Shown here one piece after another: positions 27,850 through 36,543 of a stretch of 64,000 nt of DNA. Every line of letters begins with the position of its first letter. Position 1 is the stretch's first letter. The translations under genes and the position numbers were made by a program. The stretch is from Mesorhizobium sp. M7A.F.Ca.US.008.03.1.1 (lineage in GTDB: Bacteria > Pseudomonadota > Alphaproteobacteria > Rhizobiales > Rhizobiaceae): positions 82,348-146,347 of the forward strand of contig NZ_RZRU01000014.1 in NCBI RefSeq assembly GCF_003997495.1, given 5' to 3'. The notes beneath the pieces are model-generated. The model searched no databases. It was not told the DNA's origin and worked only from the letters and a program-made list of their open reading frames with translations.

Positions 27850-28624
27850 GACCCGGCGGCCGGCGGTAGTGGTAGCGATAGACTTCCTCGAAGCCGAGCG
27901 AATGGTAGAGCGCCAGCGCCGGCACATTGTTGGCCTCGACCTGCAGCCAGGCTTCCCGCGCACCCCGCAGCCGTGCCCATTTCAGTGCAGACAGGATCAG
28001 GTTGCGGCCGTGACCCCTGTTGCGTGCCGACTTGTCGGTGGCGACCTCGAACAGGCCGGCGAGATCGCCGTCATGCACGCAGATCAGCGTCGCCAGCGCT
28101 TCGGCTCCATCTTCGAGCGCGAACAGCCCGGCTTCGGGCTGGATGGCGCCGATGATCTCCGACAGGCCGGGCCGCAGCGAAACATCCGAACCGCTGACCT
28201 TGAGCGACGCGCCGATGAAGCGGCTGATGTCCTTGAGCGGGATCTGGTCCATGGCGGCGTCGAGTTGCGCGTCGGCCAGCGGCAGCCGCATGACAAGAGA
28301 CTCGTCGAACCGGCTCCAGCCCTCGCGGTCGAGATGGCCGGCGAGATCGGGACCCGACAGCGGCGACATGCGGAACGTCAGCGGCCTGCCATAGGCATCG
28401 AAACGACGGCTGGCCCGGCCGATACGGTCGGCAATGTGCTGGGTGTCGCCGGGATCGAGCGGATTGACCGAGTTCAGCCGCTTGGCCGGATGGCCGGCGG
28501 TCAGCCGCACCACCCAGGTGCCGTCATAGTGGACGGCGGCCGCCGGCCAGGCGCGAAAGCCGGCCGCCTCGTAGCGGCGTACGATCGCCAGCATGCTTGC
28601 CGGATGCCTGGAGCTCAAAACCAT
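27842..28624 (-). CDS. GNAT family N-acetyltransferase
   Basis: Two-part protein of 260 aa with the acetyltransferase domain at the C terminus: acetyl-CoA motif A as VATDKSARNRGHGRNLILSA (about residues 195-214) and motif B region AWLQVEANNVPALALYHSLGFEEVYRYHYR, which is typical of RimI-like enzymes. The start ATG 28624 shares bases with the argJ stop (TGATG), so translation is coupled. The N-terminal half is a degenerate GNAT-like region. The substrate is unknown. Confidence 0.88.
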   Translation of the reverse strand: MVLSSRHPASMLAIVRRYEAAGFRAWPAAAVHYDGTWVVRLTAGHPAKRLNSVNPLDPGDTQHIADRIGRASRRFDAYGRPLTFRMSPLSGPDLAGHLDREGWSRFDESLVMRLPLADAQLDAAMDQIPLKDISRFIGASLKVSGSDVSLRPGLSEIIGAIQPEAGLFALEDGAEALATLICVHDGDLAGLFEVATDKSARNRGHGRNLILSALKWARLRGAREAWLQVEANNVPALALYHSLGFEEVYRYHYRRPPGHE

Positions 28625-29865
28625 CAGCTCCGATAATCGCCATTGATGGCGACATATTCCTTGGTGAGATCGCAGGTCCACACCGTCGCCTTGCCGCGGC
28701 CGATGCCGATATCGGCTCGGATGCGGATGTCGTCGCGCTTCATGTAGGCCGACGTCGCGGCCTCGGAATAGCCGGGATCGCGCTCGCCTTCGTGCGCCAG
28801 CCTGTTGTCGCCGAACCAGATCGACAGCCGGTCGCGATCGGCGGGTTCGCCGGCCTTGCCGACGGCCATGACGACGCGGCCCCAATTGGCGTCCTCGCCG
28901 GCGACCGCTGTCTTGACCAGCGGCGAATTGGCGATCGACAGCGCGATGCGCTTGGCCGAGCGCGCCGATTTGGCGCCGGTGACGGTGACTTCGACCTGCT
29001 TGCGAGCGCCTTCGCCGTCGCGCACCACCTGCAGCGCCAGCGATTTCAGCACCTTGCCGAGCGCCCGACGGAACGCGCCGAGACGGGCATCCTTGGCATC
29101 GGTTATCTCCGGCGCGCCGCGCCTGGCGGCCTTGCCGGTGGCGAAGATCAGCAGCGTGTCGCTGGTCGAGGTGTCGCTGTCGACGGTGACCGCGTTGAAA
29201 GTCCTGGCCGTGCCGCGCGACAATAGGTCCTGCAGGACAGGGGCGGCGATCGGCGCGTCGGTGGCGATGAAGGAGAGCATCGTCGCCATGTCGGGCGCGA
29301 TCATGCCGGCGCCCTTGGAAATGCCGTTGATGGTGACATCGGTGTCGCCGAGCTTGACGGTCGCGGTCGACACTTTCGGATAGGTATCCGTGGTCATGAT
29401 CGCCTTTGCCGCTTCGGTCCAGAACTCGGGCTTGCCGTTGCTGACCAGCCCCGCGAGCAGATGGCTGAATTTGCTGGTGTCGAGCGGCTCGCCGATGACG
29501 CCGGTCGAAGCCAGGAAAACCTCCGCTGCCGTGCAGCCGGCCGCCTTCGCCGCCGCCTCGCCGGTCAGCGCGGTCGACTCGCGGCCTTTCTTGCCGGTGA
29601 AGGCGTTGGCGTTGCCGGAATTGACGACCAGCACCCGCGCCTTGCCCGCGCCGAGATTCTGCCGGCAGAAGTCGACTGGCGCCGAGGGGCATTTCGATTT
29701 CGTGAACACGCCGGCGACCGCGGTGCCTTCATCGAAGACCATGGTCAAAAGATCGGTGCGGTTCTTGTACTTTATCCCGGCTTCGGCGGTGGCGATGCGC
29801 ACCCCCTCGATTTCTGGCATTTTCGGGTATTTCTTCGGCGCAAGCGGCGAAATCGTCGTGGACAT
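28624..29865 (-). CDS. argJ: Bifunctional glutamate N-acetyltransferase / amino-acid acetyltransferase ArgJ
   Basis: Arginine-biosynthesis enzyme that moves acetyl from N-acetylornithine to glutamate and can also use acetyl-CoA. 413 aa from ATG 29865 ([15 protein letters not shown]). It self-cleaves before a conserved Thr to give alpha and beta chains; that site is visible in [19 protein letters not shown] (the T of ATML, about residue 190). The C terminus [20 protein letters not shown] carries the family end. It is the first gene of argJ-GNAT-mutT, and is divergent from the caspase-like gene. Confidence 0.96.
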
Positions 29866-30036
29866 GGAGGCCTCGGGCGGGAAAAATCGCAAGGGAAGGC
29901 CGGTTTGCCCGATAGACCGCGCCGGCGCAAGGGCGTTTTCGTCGCTCTTGTCCGGGAGCTCGAACTCGCCCGGAGTTAAGCCTGCACCTCAAATCCGTTG
30001 GCGTCGGCGGGGCCGATGGCGTTATGATCCTGTCCC

Positions 30037-31266
30037 ATGGGCAGGCTTGCGATCCTCGCATGGGCATTTCTGGGACTTTTGCTGCTGAGCGCGGATGCGC
30101 AGCCGCAACGGCGGGTGGCGCTTGTCATCGGCAACGGCACTTACGCCGAAGCCGGCACGCTCGCCAATCCTGTGAACGACGCCCTCGACATCGCCGACAA
30201 GCTGCGCTCGATCGGCTTCGAGGTCATCGAGGGCAATGATCTCGGCAAGCGCGAACTCGAACGCAGCATCGGCGCGTTTTCCGATGCGCTCCAGGGCGCC
30301 GGCGTCGGGCTTTTCTACTATGCCGGCCACGGCCTGCAGGTCGACGGGCGCAACTACATCGTGCCGGTCGACGCCAGGCTGGACGTGCCGGTCAAGCTGC
30401 AGTTAGAGGCCGTGCCGATCGACGAAGTCCTCGACATCATGGAACAGCAGACCAAGGTCAGCCTGGTGTTTCTGGATGCCTGCCGCAACAACCCGTTTGC
30501 GCGCAGCCTCAGCCGCACCGCCACCACGCGCTCGGCGGCGGCGCTGGCCGGGCTGGCGCAGTTCGATTCGACGCGCGGCTCGTTCATCGCCTTCTCGACG
30601 GCACCTGGCGCGGTCGCCATGGACGGAAGCGGACGCAACTCGCCTTTCGCCGCCGCCCTGCTGCGCCACATCGCCGAGCCCGGCCAGAGCATCAACGACA
30701 TGATGATCGCGGTGCGCCGCGACGTGGTTTCGCAAACCCGCGAGGCCCAGCGCCCCTGGGAGCAGGGCTCGCTGCTCGAACGCTTCGAATTCGTCTCGGA
30801 CGGACAACCCGCCCAGCCACAAACGCCGGCCGCGGCGCCGGCGGCTTCGACGGAAGTCGCCGTACTTGAACGCTCCGTCGGCGACGACAAGGGATCGATC
30901 GAGAAATTCCTTCGCCAGGATTATCTGACGCCGGACACCGGGGCGATGAGTGAGACCGTCAAACGGCTCTACGGCCCAACCGCCATCATCTTCGGAACCC
31001 GCTACGACTCCGGTGCCATCGTCAAGGTCAAGGCCGACTGGTTCGCGCAGTGGGCTTCCTGGTCGCTAAGCATGGTATCGGGCAGCCTGGAAGTCGCTCC
31101 GCATGGCGCGGACCGTGCCGAGGTCGTCTTTGCGATGCGCTACGACTATGTGCCGAAGGACAAGTCGGCGGCACGCCTGACCGGCAAGGCGCGCGTCACG
31201 CTTGGGCTGATCAAGGCCGACGGCGGCTGGCGTATCGAATCCGAGACATCGCAAGCCATGCAGTAG
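30037..31266 (+). CDS. Secreted caspase-like (peptidase C14 / metacaspase) protein
   Basis: 409-aa protein with a signal peptide (MGRLAILAWAFLGLLLLSADA). The caspase p20-like domain covers about residues 24-245: VALVIGNGTY at the start, catalytic His98 in YYAGHG and catalytic Cys149 in LDACRNNPF. The dyad is intact. A Pro/Ala linker (PQTPAAAPAAST) leads to a C-terminal domain of about 120 aa (RLYGPTAIIFGTRYDSG) of no family I know. Export would place a caspase-fold protease in the periplasm. It lies between argJ and the parvulin gene with a TetR gene. The substrate and trigger are unknown. Confidence 0.88.
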   Translation: MGRLAILAWAFLGLLLLSADAQPQRRVALVIGNGTYAEAGTLANPVNDALDIADKLRSIGFEVIEGNDLGKRELERSIGAFSDALQGAGVGLFYYAGHGLQVDGRNYIVPVDARLDVPVKLQLEAVPIDEVLDIMEQQTKVSLVFLDACRNNPFARSLSRTATTRSAAALAGLAQFDSTRGSFIAFSTAPGAVAMDGSGRNSPFAAALLRHIAEPGQSINDMMIAVRRDVVSQTREAQRPWEQGSLLERFEFVSDGQPAQPQTPAAAPAASTEVAVLERSVGDDKGSIEKFLRQDYLTPDTGAMSETVKRLYGPTAIIFGTRYDSGAIVKVKADWFAQWASWSLSMVSGSLEVAPHGADRAEVVFAMRYDYVPKDKSAARLTGKARVTLGLIKADGGWRIESETSQAMQ

Positions 31267-31339
31267 ACATCGCCCGATGGCCGATCCGATGGTGGCAGCC
31301 AGTTTGTGCCGGCCGCATTCATGTCGATAGGAATTTATT

Positions 31340-31368
31340 CTTGACCCATGAGGGCAGCTATGCTACCT
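31340..31368 (+). promoter_or_regulatory. Candidate sigma-70 promoter of a small RNA
   Basis: CTTGAC-N17-CTACCT (31340-31345 and 31363-31368) matches the rhizobial consensus CTTGAC-N17-CTATAT except for two bases in the -10. It lies in the 316-bp gap 31267-31582 and is about 50 nt upstream of an intrinsic terminator. Confidence 0.5.
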
Positions 31369-31374
31369 TTTCGC

Positions 31375-31426
31375 CCATGGTGCTGATTTGCGCCAGTGAC
31401 CCGCCGCCCCGGCGGGTTTTTGCTTC
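31375..31426 (+). ncRNA. Candidate ~50-nt small RNA ending in an intrinsic terminator
   Basis: Between the proposed start (about 31375) and the terminator U-run (31417-31426) is a short transcript with no start of its own apart from a tiny 17-codon ORF (ATG 31379). The 3' end is a CCCGCC / GGCGGG hairpin with T5. It could equally be a terminator of the caspase gene 130 bp upstream, in which case there is no RNA gene. Confidence 0.35.
31400..31426 (+). terminator. Intrinsic terminator downstream of the caspase-like gene
   Basis: Stem CCCGCC (31400-31405) / GGCGGG (31411-31416) with a GCCCC loop, then TTTTTGCTTCTT. It ends 130 bp past the caspase stop and ahead of the TetR gene. Confidence 0.8.
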
Positions 31427-31582
31427 TTGATGCTCAACCGGTGCGCCGGCGAAGCTCCGACGGCCCCCCGTTATTTGTCCTATCCCGACCATACCAGCCT
31501 CCAGCAGCTTGAAAACGCGCCGTTTCGTTTGAGCGTCGGGTCACCTATATTGCCGGCGATAGTGTTGGCGAGGACGACAGAG

Positions 31583-32182
31583 ATGGCCGAGGACGCCGAT
31601 CCGGCGCGCAGATCGATCGGTGCGCGGCGCAACCCCGACAGCGCCGATGCCATTCTCCAAGCCGCCGAGGCCGTGCTGGTCGAGGCCGGTTATGCCGGTT
31701 TCTCGATCGAGGCGGTGGCGCGCCGGGCCCGCGCCGGCAAACCCACCATCTATCGCTGGTGGCCGAGCAAGGCGGCGTTGCTGCTTGAGGTCTATCAGCG
31801 CCAGAAGCGCGTCGATGTTCCCGATACCGGGCGACTGGAGGAGGATCTCGTCGGCTTCCTGAGGAACCTGTTCACCCACTGGCGCGAGACATCGTCGGGA
31901 AGCGTTTTCCGGTCGCTGATCGCCGAGGCACAGTCGGACGAGACCGCTGCCGCGGCCCTTGCCGACTACTCACTAGGCCGACGGTCCCATACCGGCCAGA
32001 TCGTCGAACGCGCCAAGGCAAGGGGCGAAATCCCGGCCGGCGTCGATTCAGCTGTTGTCGCCGACCTGATCGCCTCCTTCGCCTGGAGACATCTGTTGAC
32101 CAACCGCCTCGACGAGGACGAGGCGACCATCCGCAAGGCGGTCAACTACGTGATGCGAGGCATAGCGGCGCCCGCCCCCTAA
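31583..32182 (+). CDS. TetR/AcrR-family transcriptional regulator
   Basis: 199-aa regulator. The N-terminal helix-turn-helix is complete: DAILQAAEAVLVEAGYAGFSIEAVARRARAGKPTIYRWWPSKAAL (about residues 22-67). The C-terminal part resembles the TetR_C_16-type ligand domain (GSVFRSLIAEAQSDETAAAALADYSLGRR). ATG 31583 is used; no neighbouring gene is divergent, so the target is not obvious; the caspase gene upstream is the only same-strand neighbour. It converges on the parvulin gene through a bidirectional terminator. Confidence 0.9.
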   Translation: MAEDADPARRSIGARRNPDSADAILQAAEAVLVEAGYAGFSIEAVARRARAGKPTIYRWWPSKAALLLEVYQRQKRVDVPDTGRLEEDLVGFLRNLFTHWRETSSGSVFRSLIAEAQSDETAAAALADYSLGRRSHTGQIVERAKARGEIPAGVDSAVVADLIASFAWRHLLTNRLDEDEATIRKAVNYVMRGIAAPAP

Positions 32183-32195
32183 AAATACGGCAATG

Positions 32196-32236
32196 AAAAA
32201 GGGCGCGGCAACCCCTGGCTGCCGCGCCCTTTTCAA
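32196..32236. terminator. Bidirectional intrinsic terminator between tetR and the parvulin gene
   Basis: 11-bp stem AGGGCGCGGCA / TGCCGCGCCCT (32200-32210 and 32220-32230), with A-run on the left and T-run on the right, so it can end both convergent transcripts. It lies 18 bp past the tetR stop and 20 bp past the parvulin stop. Confidence 0.9.
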
Positions 32237-32249
32237 AAAGCTATCAGTC

Positions 32250-33167
32250 TTACTTGGCGCTTTCCAGCGTATCGACCGCCTTCTTCAGGTTCGCGTCGGG
32301 GATCTCGATCTTGGCGCCGGCGCGCAGCGACTTGACCAGCGCGAAATATTTGTCGCGGATGACCGCCTGCTTGGCCTGGTCCTTGACGTCGTCGAAGGCC
32401 GGCGGCTGCTTGGTGCGCTTGTCCTCGAGCTTGATGACATGCCAGCCGAACTGCGTTTGCACCGGCTGCTCGGTGTATTTGCCGACCTCGAGCGCGGAGG
32501 CCGCCTTGTCGAACTCCGGCACCATCTGGCCAGGTCCGAACCAGCCGAGATCGCCGCCGCTGGTCTTGCCTGACGGATCGCTGGTGTGCTCGTTGGCGAG
32601 CTTCTGGAAGTCGGCGCCGCCGTCGAGCTGCTTGATGATGGCCTCGGCCTCTTCCTTCGTCTTCACGAGGATGTGACGGGCATGCAGCTCGTTGGTGGGC
32701 GGCGTGTTGGCGATTTCCTGGTCGTAGCGGGCGCGGACCTCGGCGTCGGTGACCTTGTCGACGACACCCTTCTCGACCATCTCGCCATGCAGCGCGCGCT
32801 GCTGCAGGAAGGCCATGCGGCGCTGGAAGTCGGGATCCTTGTCGAGCCCGGTGGTGACCGCCTGGGCGGCCATGACGCGGATCTCGATGGCAGCCGAAAG
32901 GGCGGCGGCACGGCGCTGCTCGGGCGGCAATTGCGCGAACTGCTGCGACAATTCCCCTTCGGCAAGCACCAGATCTGCTTCGGTCAGGGGCTGGCCGTTG
33001 ACCGTGGCGATAACCTTATTCGGATCGACCGGTGCCGCGGCCGGTGCTGCTGCATCCGCCGGAGCGGGAGCGGTTTGCTGCGCCATCAGCGGCGAGAGCG
33101 AAAGGGCCGACAGGCCGACGGCCAAGCCAAGGCTGGCGAGCGACGCGCGGCGAAACAACAGGGACAT
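32250..33167 (-). CDS. Peptidyl-prolyl cis-trans isomerase, parvulin type (PrsA/SurA-like), secreted
   Basis: 305-aa foldase with a signal peptide (MSLLFRRASLASLGLAVGLSALS, cut near MAQQ). It has an N-terminal chaperone segment (VIATVNGQPLTEADLVLAE) and a parvulin rotamase domain (about residues 160-255: LHARHILVKTKEEAEAIIKQ, GDLGWFGPGQMVPEFDKA, GWHVIKLEDKR). It likely assists folding of exported proteins after SecA-driven export; secA is divergent, with its promoter in the shared gap. Start ATG 33167 is chosen over the open frame to 33266. Confidence 0.93.
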   Translation of the reverse strand: MSLLFRRASLASLGLAVGLSALSLSPLMAQQTAPAPADAAAPAAAPVDPNKVIATVNGQPLTEADLVLAEGELSQQFAQLPPEQRRAAALSAAIEIRVMAAQAVTTGLDKDPDFQRRMAFLQQRALHGEMVEKGVVDKVTDAEVRARYDQEIANTPPTNELHARHILVKTKEEAEAIIKQLDGGADFQKLANEHTSDPSGKTSGGDLGWFGPGQMVPEFDKAASALEVGKYTEQPVQTQFGWHVIKLEDKRTKQPPAFDDVKDQAKQAVIRDKYFALVKSLRAGAKIEIPDANLKKAVDTLESAK

Positions 33168-33259
33168 AGGGTGACTCCGGTGGGGATTGTTAAGAGGGGT
33201 GCTTCCAGATCGGCCAGATTGTGGCGGAATTTGGCGCAGCCAGCAGGGCCGGCGCGGCG

Positions 33260-33288
33260 TTGACATCAGTTGAGCCCCCTCTTATCTG
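33260..33288 (+). promoter_or_regulatory. Sigma-70 promoter of secA
   Basis: TTGACA (33260-33265), 17-bp spacer, TATCTG (33283-33288). The -35 is a perfect match to TTGACA. Start of transcription is expected near 33295, giving a leader of about 120 nt. Confidence 0.7.
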
Positions 33289-33300
33289 TCCAACGACTTT

Positions 33301-33330
33301 GCGTCCAGAACCGTTTTCCGGACGCTTTTT
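33301..33330 (+). terminator. Terminator-like hairpin in the secA leader (possible attenuator)
   Basis: Stem GCGTCC (33301-33306) / GGACGC (33320-33325) directly followed by TTTTTGTGTTTG. A second perfect hairpin, CCACGT-TC-ACGTGG, lies at 33339-33352. The first has the form of an intrinsic terminator but sits between the promoter and the secA start, so it could make secA transcription conditional. Confidence 0.5.
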
Positions 33331-33413
33331 GTGTTTGTCCACGTTCACGTGGAATTGATGGGGCCGGCCGGCGCTCATCTCAAGATTGAGAATTCTATCG
33401 AAAGGACCATCGG

Positions 33414-36146
33414 ATGGTCAGTCTCGGCGGTCTCGCCCGTAAGGTTTTCGGTTCCTCCAACGACCGTCGGGTCAAATCGACCCGGCCTCGTGTCGAGGCG
33501 ATCAACGCCATGGAAAACGAGATGCGGGCGCTTTCCGACGAGGAGTTGGTCGGCCGCACCGCAAAATTCCGCCAGGACATCGCCAACGGCGCCACGCTCG
33601 ACGACCTGTTGGTGCCGGCCTTTGCCACCGCCCGCGAGGCGGCGCGCCGCGTGCTCGGCATGCGCCCCTTCGATGTCCAGCTGATCGGCGGCATGGTGCT
33701 GCACAATGGCGGCATTGCCGAGATGCGCACCGGCGAGGGCAAGACCCTGGTCGCGACGCTGCCGGTCTACCTCAACGCGCTCGCCGGCAAGGGCGTCCAC
33801 GTCGTCACCGTCAACGACTATCTGGCCACCCGCGACTCCGAATGGATGGGCCGCGTCTACAAGTTCCTCGGCCTCTCGGTCGGCGTCATCGTCCACGGCC
33901 TGTCCGACGAGGAGCGCAGCGCCGCCTACGCCGCCGATGTCACCTACGCCACCAACAATGAGCTCGGCTTCGACTATCTCAGAGACAACATGAAATACGA
34001 GCGCGCCCAGATGGTGCAGCGCGGTCACAATTACGCGATCGTCGACGAAGTCGATTCCATCCTGGTCGACGAGGCGCGCACGCCGCTGATCATTTCCGGT
34101 CCGCTCGAGGACCGTTCGGAAATGTACAACACCATCGACACCTTCATCATCCAGCTGCAGCCGCAGGATTATGAGATCGACGAGAAGCAGAAGACCTCGA
34201 TCTTCACCGAGGAAGGCACCGAGAAGCTCGAGAACCTTCTGCGCGACGCCGGCCTGCTCAAGGGCGAGTCGCTCTACGACGTCGAGAACGTCGCCATCGT
34301 CCACCACGTCAACAACGCGCTGAAGGCGCACCGGCTGTTCCAGAAGGACAAGGACTATATCGTGCGCAACGGCGAGATCGTCATCATCGACGAGTTCACC
34401 GGCCGCATGATGCCAGGCCGCCGCTATTCGGAAGGCCTGCACCAGGCGCTCGAAGCCAAGGAGCATGTGGCGATCCAGCCGGAGAACCAGACGCTGGCCT
34501 CCGTCACCTTCCAGAACTATTTCCGCCTCTACAAGAAGCTATCCGGCATGACCGGCACGGCGCTGACCGAGGCCGAGGAATTCGGCAACATCTACGGCCT
34601 CGAAGTCACCGAGATCCCGACCAATCTGCCGGTCGTGCGCATCGACGAGGACGACGAGGTCTATCGGACGGTCGAGGAGAAATACAAGGCGATCGTCAGG
34701 GAGATCCGCGAAGCCAGCGCCAAGGGCCAGCCGACGCTGGTCGGCACCACTTCCATCGAAAAGTCCGAGCAGCTGGCCGAGCGCCTGCGCAAGGAAGGCT
34801 TCACCGATTTCGAAGTGCTGAACGCCCGCCATCACGAGCGCGAGGCGGCGATCGTCGCCCAGGCCGGCAAGCCCGGCGCCATCACCATCGCCACCAACAT
34901 GGCCGGCCGCGGCACCGACATCAAGCTCGGCGGCAATGCCGAGATGCGCATCGAAGATGAACTCGGCGACATGCCGGCCGGACCCGAGCGCGAGGCGCGG
35001 GAGAAGGAAATTATTGCCGACATCGAGCGGCTGAAGGAAAAGGCACTGGCCGCCGGCGGCCTCTATGTGCTGGCCACCGAGCGCCACGAATCGCGCCGCA
35101 TCGACAACCAGTTGCGCGGCCGTTCCGGCCGTCAGGGCGACCCCGGCCGCTCGAAATTCTTCCTGTCGCTGCAGGACGATCTGATGCGCATCTTCGGCTC
35201 CGAGCGCATGGACGGCATGCTGCAGAAGCTCGGCCTCAAGGAAGACGAGGCGATCATCCATCCGTGGATCAACAAGGCGCTGGAAAAGGCGCAGAAGAAG
35301 GTCGAGGCGCGCAACTTCGACATCCGCAAGAACCTTTTGAAATATGACGACGTCTCCAACGACCAGCGCAAGGTGGTGTTCGAGCAGCGCATCGAACTGA
35401 TGGACGGCGAAGGCCTTTCCGAAACGATCGCCGAGATGCGCGAGGGCGTCATCGACGAGATCGTCGCCAAGGCCATTCCCGAAAACGCCTATGCCGAGCA
35501 GTGGAACGTTGCCGGGCTGAAGGCCGAGATCGCCGAGTTCCTGAACCTCGACCTGCCGGTCGAGGACTGGGCCAAGGAAGAGGGCATCGCCGAGGACGAC
35601 ATCCGCGAGCGCATCGCGCAGGCCGCCGAAGCCGCCGCCAAGGAGCGCGCCGAGCGTTTTGGCCCCGAGGTGATGAATTACGTCGAGCGCTCGGTTGTAC
35701 TGCAGACGCTCGACCATCTGTGGCGCGAGCACATCGTCAATCTCGACCATCTGCGTTCGGTCGTGGGCTTCCGCGGCTACGCCCAGCGCGATCCGCTGCA
35801 GGAGTATAAGGGCGAGGCGTTCGAGCTGTTCCAGGCCATGCTGGGCAATCTGCGCCAGGCCGTCACCGCGCAGTTGATGCGCGTCGAACTGGTCCGCCAG
35901 GCCGCTGAAGCGCCGCCTCCGGAAGCCCCCGACATGTTCGGCACCCATATTGACGGCACAACCGGCGAGAACGACTTCGAAGGCGGCGAAACCGCTCTCC
36001 TGGTCCGCCCGGAGACAACCGCCGTCGTCGCCCCCGAAGACCGCGATCCCAACAACCAGGCCACCTGGGGCAAGGTCGGCCGCAACGAAGCCTGCCCCTG
36101 CGGCTCCGGCAAGAAATACAAGCACTGCCACGGCGCGTTCGCGTAA
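33414..36146 (+). CDS. secA: Preprotein translocase ATPase SecA
   Basis: Motor that drives unfolded proteins through SecYEG. 910 aa, complete: nucleotide-binding fold 1 with Walker A GEGKT ([16 protein letters not shown], about residue 105), [19 protein letters not shown], then the second fold with [14 protein letters not shown] and [30 protein letters not shown], and the C-terminal zinc-binding tail [14 protein letters not shown] for SecB contact. The start ATG 33414 has AAAGGA 7 nt upstream. A terminator-like leader hairpin precedes it. It is divergent from a periplasmic foldase. Confidence 0.97.
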
Positions 36147-36159
36147 GGCGCGCTTCTTT

Positions 36160-36281
36160 CCTTCTCCCCGTCACTATACGGGGAGAAGGTGCCCGAAGGG
36201 CGGATGAGGGGCGGCGCTGACGGTCGAGATTGACCGATCTCCCCACCTGAGGGGGAGATGGCCGGCAGGCCAGAGGGGGGC
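36160..36281. repeat. RIME-like rhizobial intergenic mosaic element, copy 1
   Basis: Two palindromes: CCTTCTCCCCGT / ACGGGGAGAAGG (36160-36189) and ATCTCCCC / GGGGGAGAT (36237-36259), joined by GCCCGAAGGGCGGATGAGGGG. This layout fits the RIME elements known from rhizobia. It starts 14 bp after the secA stop and may act as its terminator. The first palindrome recurs in reverse at 36514-36543. Confidence 0.75.
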
Positions 36282-36490
36282 GCTGTCCCGCTGACCAAGC
36301 CGCCTTCAGCCGCACCATTTCGGCCTCGAACTCGAACTTCAGCTGCGCGGCTTCTTCTTCCGGCAGCCAAAGCACCATCTGTGGCACTATCTTGATAGAG
36401 CCGGGTGCTGTCCTGATCCCAGGGCAACGTTTCCGCGCTGCGCGCCTCGGCGACGATGAAACAGCGGCGCAAATCTCCCACCGCCCGCGC
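36282..36490 (-). pseudogene. Possible decayed ORF between two RIME-like copies
   Basis: Minus-strand frames contain two protein-like stretches in different frames: FIVAEARSAETLPWDQDS, and MVLWLPEEEAAQLKFEFEAE followed by MVRLKAA. A frameshift between them would join them into one small gene. Neither has a clean start or family match. The segment is flanked by inverted RIME-like copies (36160-36281 and 36491-36543), so it may be a relic trapped between them. This accounts for the 477-bp gap 36147-36623. Confidence 0.3.
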
Positions 36491-36543
36491 CGCCCCTCAT
36501 CCGCCTGCCGGCACCTTCTCCCCGTATAGTGACGGGGAGAAGG
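36491..36543. repeat. RIME-like element, copy 2 (inverted, partial)
   Basis: CGCCCCTCATCCGCCTGCC then the palindrome CCTTCTCCCCGT / ACGGGGAGAAGG (36514-36543). Its loop ATAGTG is the reverse complement of the CACTAT loop of copy 1, so it is an inverted copy. The second palindrome of copy 1 is missing. Confidence 0.75.

Follow-up and report, generated by a model that had tools for sequence, protein, structure and literature searches.

Why would a caspase-family protease with a probable export signal be encoded, together with a regulator of the TetR family, between argJ and the gene of a parvulin foldase in Mesorhizobium? Did the two genes arrive as one accessory module, as the original prediction thought possible, or do they have separate histories? 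And what is the domain that follows the protease? In the window (the whole stretch of DNA that was analysed, 64,000 nucleotides, G000:C4:82348-146347), Pfam bears out the neighbours that had been named for the caspase gene (argJ, the TetR gene and the foldase), and the locus reads as follows.

28624–29892, minus strand: argJ, divergent neighbour of the caspase gene (PF01960, E 3.5e-139)
30037–31266, plus strand: caspase-family (orthocaspase) gene, 409 amino acids (PF00656, E 2.5e-42), product probably exported
31398–31418, plus strand: terminator-like hairpin after the caspase gene, weak (consensus scan)
31507–31582, plus strand: conserved stretch immediately before tetR, perhaps a promoter or operator (blastn)
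31583–32182, plus strand: gene of a tetR-family regulator, 199 amino acids (PF00440 and PF16859)
32250–33266, minus strand: ppi, the neighbouring parvulin foldase gene (PF13616/PF00639)
33414–36146, plus strand: secA (Pfam)

Within the caspase gene, the following parts can be told apart.

30037–30102, plus strand: signal-peptide-like N-terminus, residues 1–22, with a putative ADA-Q cleavage site (rule-based check)
30109–30786, plus strand: caspase domain, residues 25–250 (PF00656), with the dyad His98/Cys149 and a median pairwise dN/dS of 0.052
30787–30855, plus strand: Pro/Ala-rich linker, about residues 251–273 (pLDDT below 50 at residues 257–282; dN/dS)
30856–31263, plus strand: NTF2-like (SnoaL-type) C-terminal domain (AF2 pLDDT 90.9; VIA; Foldseek; SnoaL_3)

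Is this a working protease? The PF00656 match scores 145.6 bits against a curated cut-off of 21.4, which places the protein in caspase family C14. The caspase fold with an intact His98/Cys149 pair that had been claimed for it is upheld, neither residue varying in an alignment of 51 full-length orthologues. The genus accounts for 46 of these sequences, counting that of the window, and four other genera for the remaining 5; alignment A1 combines 34 of these 51 with two distant caspases. Given this conservation, it seems reasonable to regard the protein as a cysteine protease that would act through His98 and Cys149. The alternative, a pseudo-caspase devoid of proteolytic activity, has precedents in the 18.9% of alphaproteobacterial orthocaspases that carry a substituted His–Cys dyad according to the available part of PMC6426788. 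It is nevertheless very improbable here, as not only the dyad but also two acidic residues of the presumed S1 pocket, Asp48 and Asp147, are invariant in 51/51 orthologues, and the caspase domain is under strong purifying selection.

Which bonds would such a protease cut? The paracaspase MALT1 is the best PDB match to the caspase domain by sequence (E 6.6e-15; profile E 1.1e-19) and also by fold, where VIA gives it Z 23.5 (rmsd 3.1, 214 aligned) ahead of caspase-6 (Z 21.4). In the sequence alignment, Asp48 and Asp147 coincide with the MALT1 S1 acids Asp365 and Asp462. The P1 specificity of MALT1 is thought to be due to these two residues together with Glu500, and the enzyme needs dimerisation, as stated in the portion of PMC4357240 at hand. 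Because Asp48 and Asp147 match the acidic S1 residues of the paracaspase, cleavage would most likely take place after Arg or Lys. Asp196, also invariant in the 51 orthologues, is only a candidate for the equivalent of Glu500. The likeness to MALT1 has its bounds: the window protein is bacterial and probably exported, and an NTF2-like domain stands in place of Ig. A Pfam scan of the window protein up to E 0.1 finds no Ig domain, which leaves it outside the MALT1-type paracaspases. A profile match to caspase-7, in its C-terminal part and at residues 176–233, hints at a possible p10-like portion; the orthocaspase scheme in the accessible text of PMC6426788 draws the prokaryotic form with a p20 domain and no separate p10. 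The full-length protein was modelled with moderate confidence (mean pLDDT 75, pTM 0.57).

Where would the protease act? The N-terminus combines a hydrophobic core with an A-x-A site, and 48 of the 51 orthologue N-termini pass a script of simple rules; each of the other three misses one rule. Judged from these N-termini, the protein is probably exported to the periplasm by a Sec-type route. The original prediction took the export of a caspase-type protease to be uncommon, a view that the related caspases do not support: by eye, 19 of 21 have a hydrophobic signal-like N-terminus in a set that was chosen and is not random (homologues from G000, G009, G012–G014, G336 and G393, with start codons picked by script near the expected place). 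In the part of PMC3501461 available, 46 of 398 caspase-domain-only sequences are reported to have one N-terminal helix that may be a signal peptide. Export of a caspase would therefore be no surprise, since signal-like starts are usual among the related caspases and the helix has been reported before.

The window's genome (G000) has seven PF00656 matches, and the five of its six other caspases that were read share with the window protein both the caspase domain and a signal-like start. They differ from it in their C-terminal parts, which are Sel1/TPR, PG_binding_1 or none (SH3 in another genus). Three caspase genes of G000, all with signal-like starts, lie within about 9 kb (L230, G000:C11:205000-220000); in addition to the caspase domain, Sel1/TPR was found in one, PG_binding_1 in another and nothing in the third. 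A similar trio is seen in G009 (L237), a same-genus genome with 17 matches to the caspase; the 20 other genomes covered by the same search have 0–12. Orthocaspases are abundant in Alphaproteobacteria, as far as the sections of PMC3501461 and PMC6426788 consulted go. The window protein is like these prokaryotic orthocaspases (C14, PF00656) in its caspase domain and His–Cys dyad; it differs by its NTF2-like C-terminal domain, as none is named among the domain partners in the text of section 8 of PMC3501461. No description of a caspase–NTF2/SnoaL protein or of this gene was recognised in the literature searched, which covers few subscription papers. The locus would be a rather ordinary representative of the exported orthocaspases, which form a large group; its domain architecture was not found described in that literature.

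An anti-phage caspase system was also considered and rejected: NF047832 (NCBIfam, EACC1) reaches 45 bits against a cut-off of 140, the PADLOC model 'caspase' matches with E 3.6e-8 over positions 5–190 of 453 only and comes with no cut-off, and there are no system partners, the neighbours being argJ and tetR.

What is the C-terminal domain? It had been called unfamiliar, a label that does not survive the homologue search and structure comparison, which identify an NTF2/SnoaL-like fold. Modelled in isolation, the domain adopts the NTF2-like cone fold with an AF2 pLDDT of 90.9. VIA matches the model to 4gb5 (Z 15.8, rmsd 2.0, 126 aligned) and 3ef8 (Z 15.5), and Foldseek to 3gzr (E 1.3e-6). SnoaL_3 scores 22.4 bits on the isolated domain against a cut-off of 22; on the whole protein its match, at residues 324–402, is weak and falls below the cut-off at 19.4 bits. 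At E up to 0.1, SnoaL_3 is matched by 26 of the 28 C-terminal domains (out of the 51) that make up alignment A2. On the strength of the models, the domain is a predicted member of the NTF2-like superfamily, of the SnoaL type.

The domain is rare in the genomes sampled. A profile search finds distant relatives in Alphaproteobacteria, and the counts are 9 of 394 genomes in the family, at least 8 of 397 in the order and at least 5 of 385 in the class, with the window's genome included in each; the last two are minimum counts, from profile searches that scored up to 10 first-look candidates per genome. In the class, a second profile (A4) adds no genome to the 5 of 385 found with A3. Lys332, Gly383 and Glu403 are invariant across the distant NTF2-like set, and no PDB sequence match was found with the profile of this set. 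The A2 profile did not find the domain on other caspases in the stretches searched of G000, G009, G012, G013 and G014. Two caspases of another genus, of a different and probably exported type, carry a distant relative of it (L228 and L229), with SH3 domains in L228, the one scanned. The domain is also found in shorter proteins with signal-like starts (L286–L291, L294) and in two larger proteins (L292 and L295). Two more proteins, L285:377-1480 and L293:709-1824, have signal-like starts and the same NTF2-like domain at the C-terminus, and look ClpP-like by eye. This label is weak: PF00574 gives E 0.013 for L285, below cut-off, and the label is otherwise a motif reading by eye; L293 has no PF00574 match and no relevant PDB match.

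What would an NTF2-like domain do on a protease? Enzymes acting on small molecules and small-molecule binders are numerous among NTF2-like proteins, and a fold match alone shows no function. The association (hub) domains of CaMKII rank among the top matches of the C-terminal domain in both VIA (Z 13.1–13.6) and Foldseek. CaMKII has the order enzyme, linker, NTF2-like domain, which is also the order in the window protein. The predicted fold is the same as that of the CaMKII hub and other NTF2-like proteins, but identity is only about 9–19% in the rows listed and the enzyme of the window is a protease, not a kinase. We favour a domain that dimerises and/or binds a ligand, and in doing so would bring protease domains together. 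It is quite possible, if somewhat doubtful, that the domain is instead a ligand sensor or targeting domain which recruits or localises the protease and does not oligomerise it. Such a role would fit the distant relatives of the domain, some of which stand alone as proteins with signal-like starts and others of which are attached to further exported proteins; it would also fit the small-molecule enzymes among the best structural neighbours, such as scytalone dehydratase and LinA. Nothing decisive speaks against it, although the CaMKII hub domains also rank among the top matches.

Did the caspase gene and tetR arrive together? To place them in the genus, argJ was located in 144 of 146 genomes and up to 5 kb upstream of it was read, less where contigs end; 139 of the 146 genomes pass quality, and the 7 that do not (<90% complete or >5% contaminated) were kept in the counts. 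An intact caspase gene with tetR is present at 45 of the 144 loci, window included, and without tetR at one (G141). Two loci have a frame-broken caspase gene with tetR (G040, G087) and five a caspase remnant with tetR (G071, G044, G125, G001, G022), the one in G071 being weak (22 residues, E 3e-4). In 78 there is tetR and no detectable caspase, and in 13 neither gene. Among eight relatives from other genera, four have ppi at most about 1.1 kb away from argJ and neither a tetR nor a caspase match in the interval, three have no ppi match, and in G017 a tetR–ppi–secA series begins 2.7 kb from argJ. At one argJ locus (G005:C1:3209918-3211170), argJ matches in two overlapping frames, suggesting a frameshift or an assembly error. 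From the locus counts within the genus and in the other genera, argJ–ppi–secA is the older order, tetR an older addition and the caspase gene a later one. The closeness of argJ and the foldase gene that had been proposed is thus seen in half of the other-genus relatives and in the 13 genus loci with neither gene.

The spacer between the caspase gene and tetR gives further hints. The tetR gene more likely starts at ATG 31583 than at TTG 31427: a start codon stands at that residue in 108 of the 109 genus loci whose tetR match begins there, and the longer reading is ruled out in 65 of the 109 because of in-frame stops within 52 codons upstream. With 31267–31583 as blastn query, 38 of 151 loci match, mostly over 31507–31582, and they include loci with and without the caspase gene. 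In 13 of the 151 loci, tetR is separated from the caspase gene, which is intact in 10 of them, broken in 1 and a remnant in 2, by an MFS transporter gene on the strand opposite to tetR (L078 of G028, L091, L094, L098, L101, L106, L108, L111–L113, L115, L116 and L121); the window itself has no MFS match. The MFS gene of L078 is broken across two reading frames. A divergent pair of TetR and MFS genes is a usual layout for a regulated pump. Since the MFS gene stands divergent from tetR in these 13 loci, tetR more plausibly belongs to the MFS pump, and it is probably a neighbour of the caspase gene rather than its partner. A TTGACC...TATGCT-like pair (by eye) followed by the terminator-like hairpin can be seen between the two genes at 31341–31420. 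A small RNA gene at this place was dropped as a candidate: the consensus scan calls no promoter, terminator-like sites occur at near chance number (2 found against 1.3 expected in shuffles), and beyond the part next to tetR the spacer has blastn matches in the closest relatives only. An Rfam scan over 28000–36500 found no known RNA family between genes, its single match lying inside secA and far below the gathering score.

How and when did the caspase gene come to this site? In a tree of argJ, ppi and secA with 152 rows (the 144 genus loci and 8 from other genera), all caspases found, intact or decayed, fall in one clade of 84 genomes and at the same site; the clade has an SH-aLRT support of 90 only, in a quick tree. 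A single gain in this clade needs 10 losses if remnants and broken copies count as present, or 14 with intact copies only. Caspase distances follow flank distances (Mantel r 0.80, a value reached in 0 of 2000 permutations). Median pairwise dN/dS, leaving out pairs with dS outside 0.1–1.5, is 0.139 for the signal peptide, 0.184 for the C-terminal domain and 0.273 for the linker (residues 251–274). The five other-genus orthologues, with 63–67% identity, sit in other neighbourhoods, next to dnaK (L223), a D-Ala-D-Ala-ligase-like gene (L224) or HNH/VOC-like genes (L225, L226) by eye, with unassigned neighbours for the fifth (L227). No match to argJ, tetR, ppi or secA was found around them (L276–L280; about 3.2 kb upstream and 1–4 kb downstream). 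Because these orthologues sit in differing places, the neighbours reveal no function. Of 268 matching plasmid records none covers 80% of the query, and the rows listed match the caspase part, about residues 24–253.

In favour of a joint accessory insertion, with TetR as the regulator of the caspase gene, tetR lies downstream on the same strand in 45 of the 46 loci with an intact caspase gene. Half of that proposal stands: the caspase gene is an addition and not core, being intact in 46 of 144 loci. The other half, a joint insertion with tetR, is largely refuted by the loci with tetR and no caspase and by the divergent MFS gene that separates the two. Moreover, tetR occurs outside and below the caspase clade on the tree, a relative of it lies beside ppi–secA in G017, G141 has the caspase gene alone, and the other-genus orthologues lack tetR in the flanks searched, all of which makes a single module hardly credible. 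The gene tetR is an older neighbour and probably an independent one. Could the caspase gene instead have entered the same spot several times by horizontal transfer? Its patchy presence, with at least 11 state changes when remnants count as present and 14 with intact copies only, points that way, as do the differing neighbourhoods in other genera and the conflict of 5 of 22 well-supported caspase splits with flank splits. Because of these conflicts, some exchange between lineages is likely. Several gains are unlikely all the same, in view of the constant site (in 44 of the 45 other carriers, 137–164 bp separate the starts of the caspase gene and argJ; in G008 the distance is 261 bp), the remnants at the same spot in five genomes and the caspase distances that track those of the flanks. 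A single arrival remains the preferred history: the gene probably came to lie beside argJ in an ancestor of the 84-genome clade. From there its descent would have been largely vertical, with strong purifying selection and about 10–14 losses. An old acquisition, since lost from many relatives, seems to describe the gene better than half of a newly inserted pair.

The explanation that we propose, with roughly even confidence as a whole, is a periplasmic Arg/Lys-specific orthocaspase of a Mesorhizobium lineage with an NTF2-like dimerising or ligand-binding hub, which arrived once, was lost repeatedly and is independent of tetR. A Sec-type signal peptide would carry the orthocaspase to the periplasm; there, the caspase domain would cleave after Arg or Lys, tied through the Pro/Ala-rich linker to an NTF2-like domain that would most likely pair the protease domains or bind a ligand. 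A wider idea, which we regard as speculative and rather improbable, is that of an alphaproteobacterial family of periplasmic proteases which share one NTF2-like hub, reused on caspase and ClpP-like folds, and in which the caspase form is switched on by hub-driven dimerisation or ligand binding, an extracytoplasmic counterpart of the activation logic of CaMKII and MALT1. If true, one periplasmic NTF2-like domain reused on unrelated proteases would point to an unrecognised regulatory part.

Exported bacterial caspases appear numerous, and few functions are given for them in the literature examined. A small two-domain protein, strongly conserved and intact in its active site, whose compact partner domain is modelled with confidence, would offer a practical model for how such enzymes switch on, and the many natural losses, decayed copies in close relatives included, provide ready-made comparisons.
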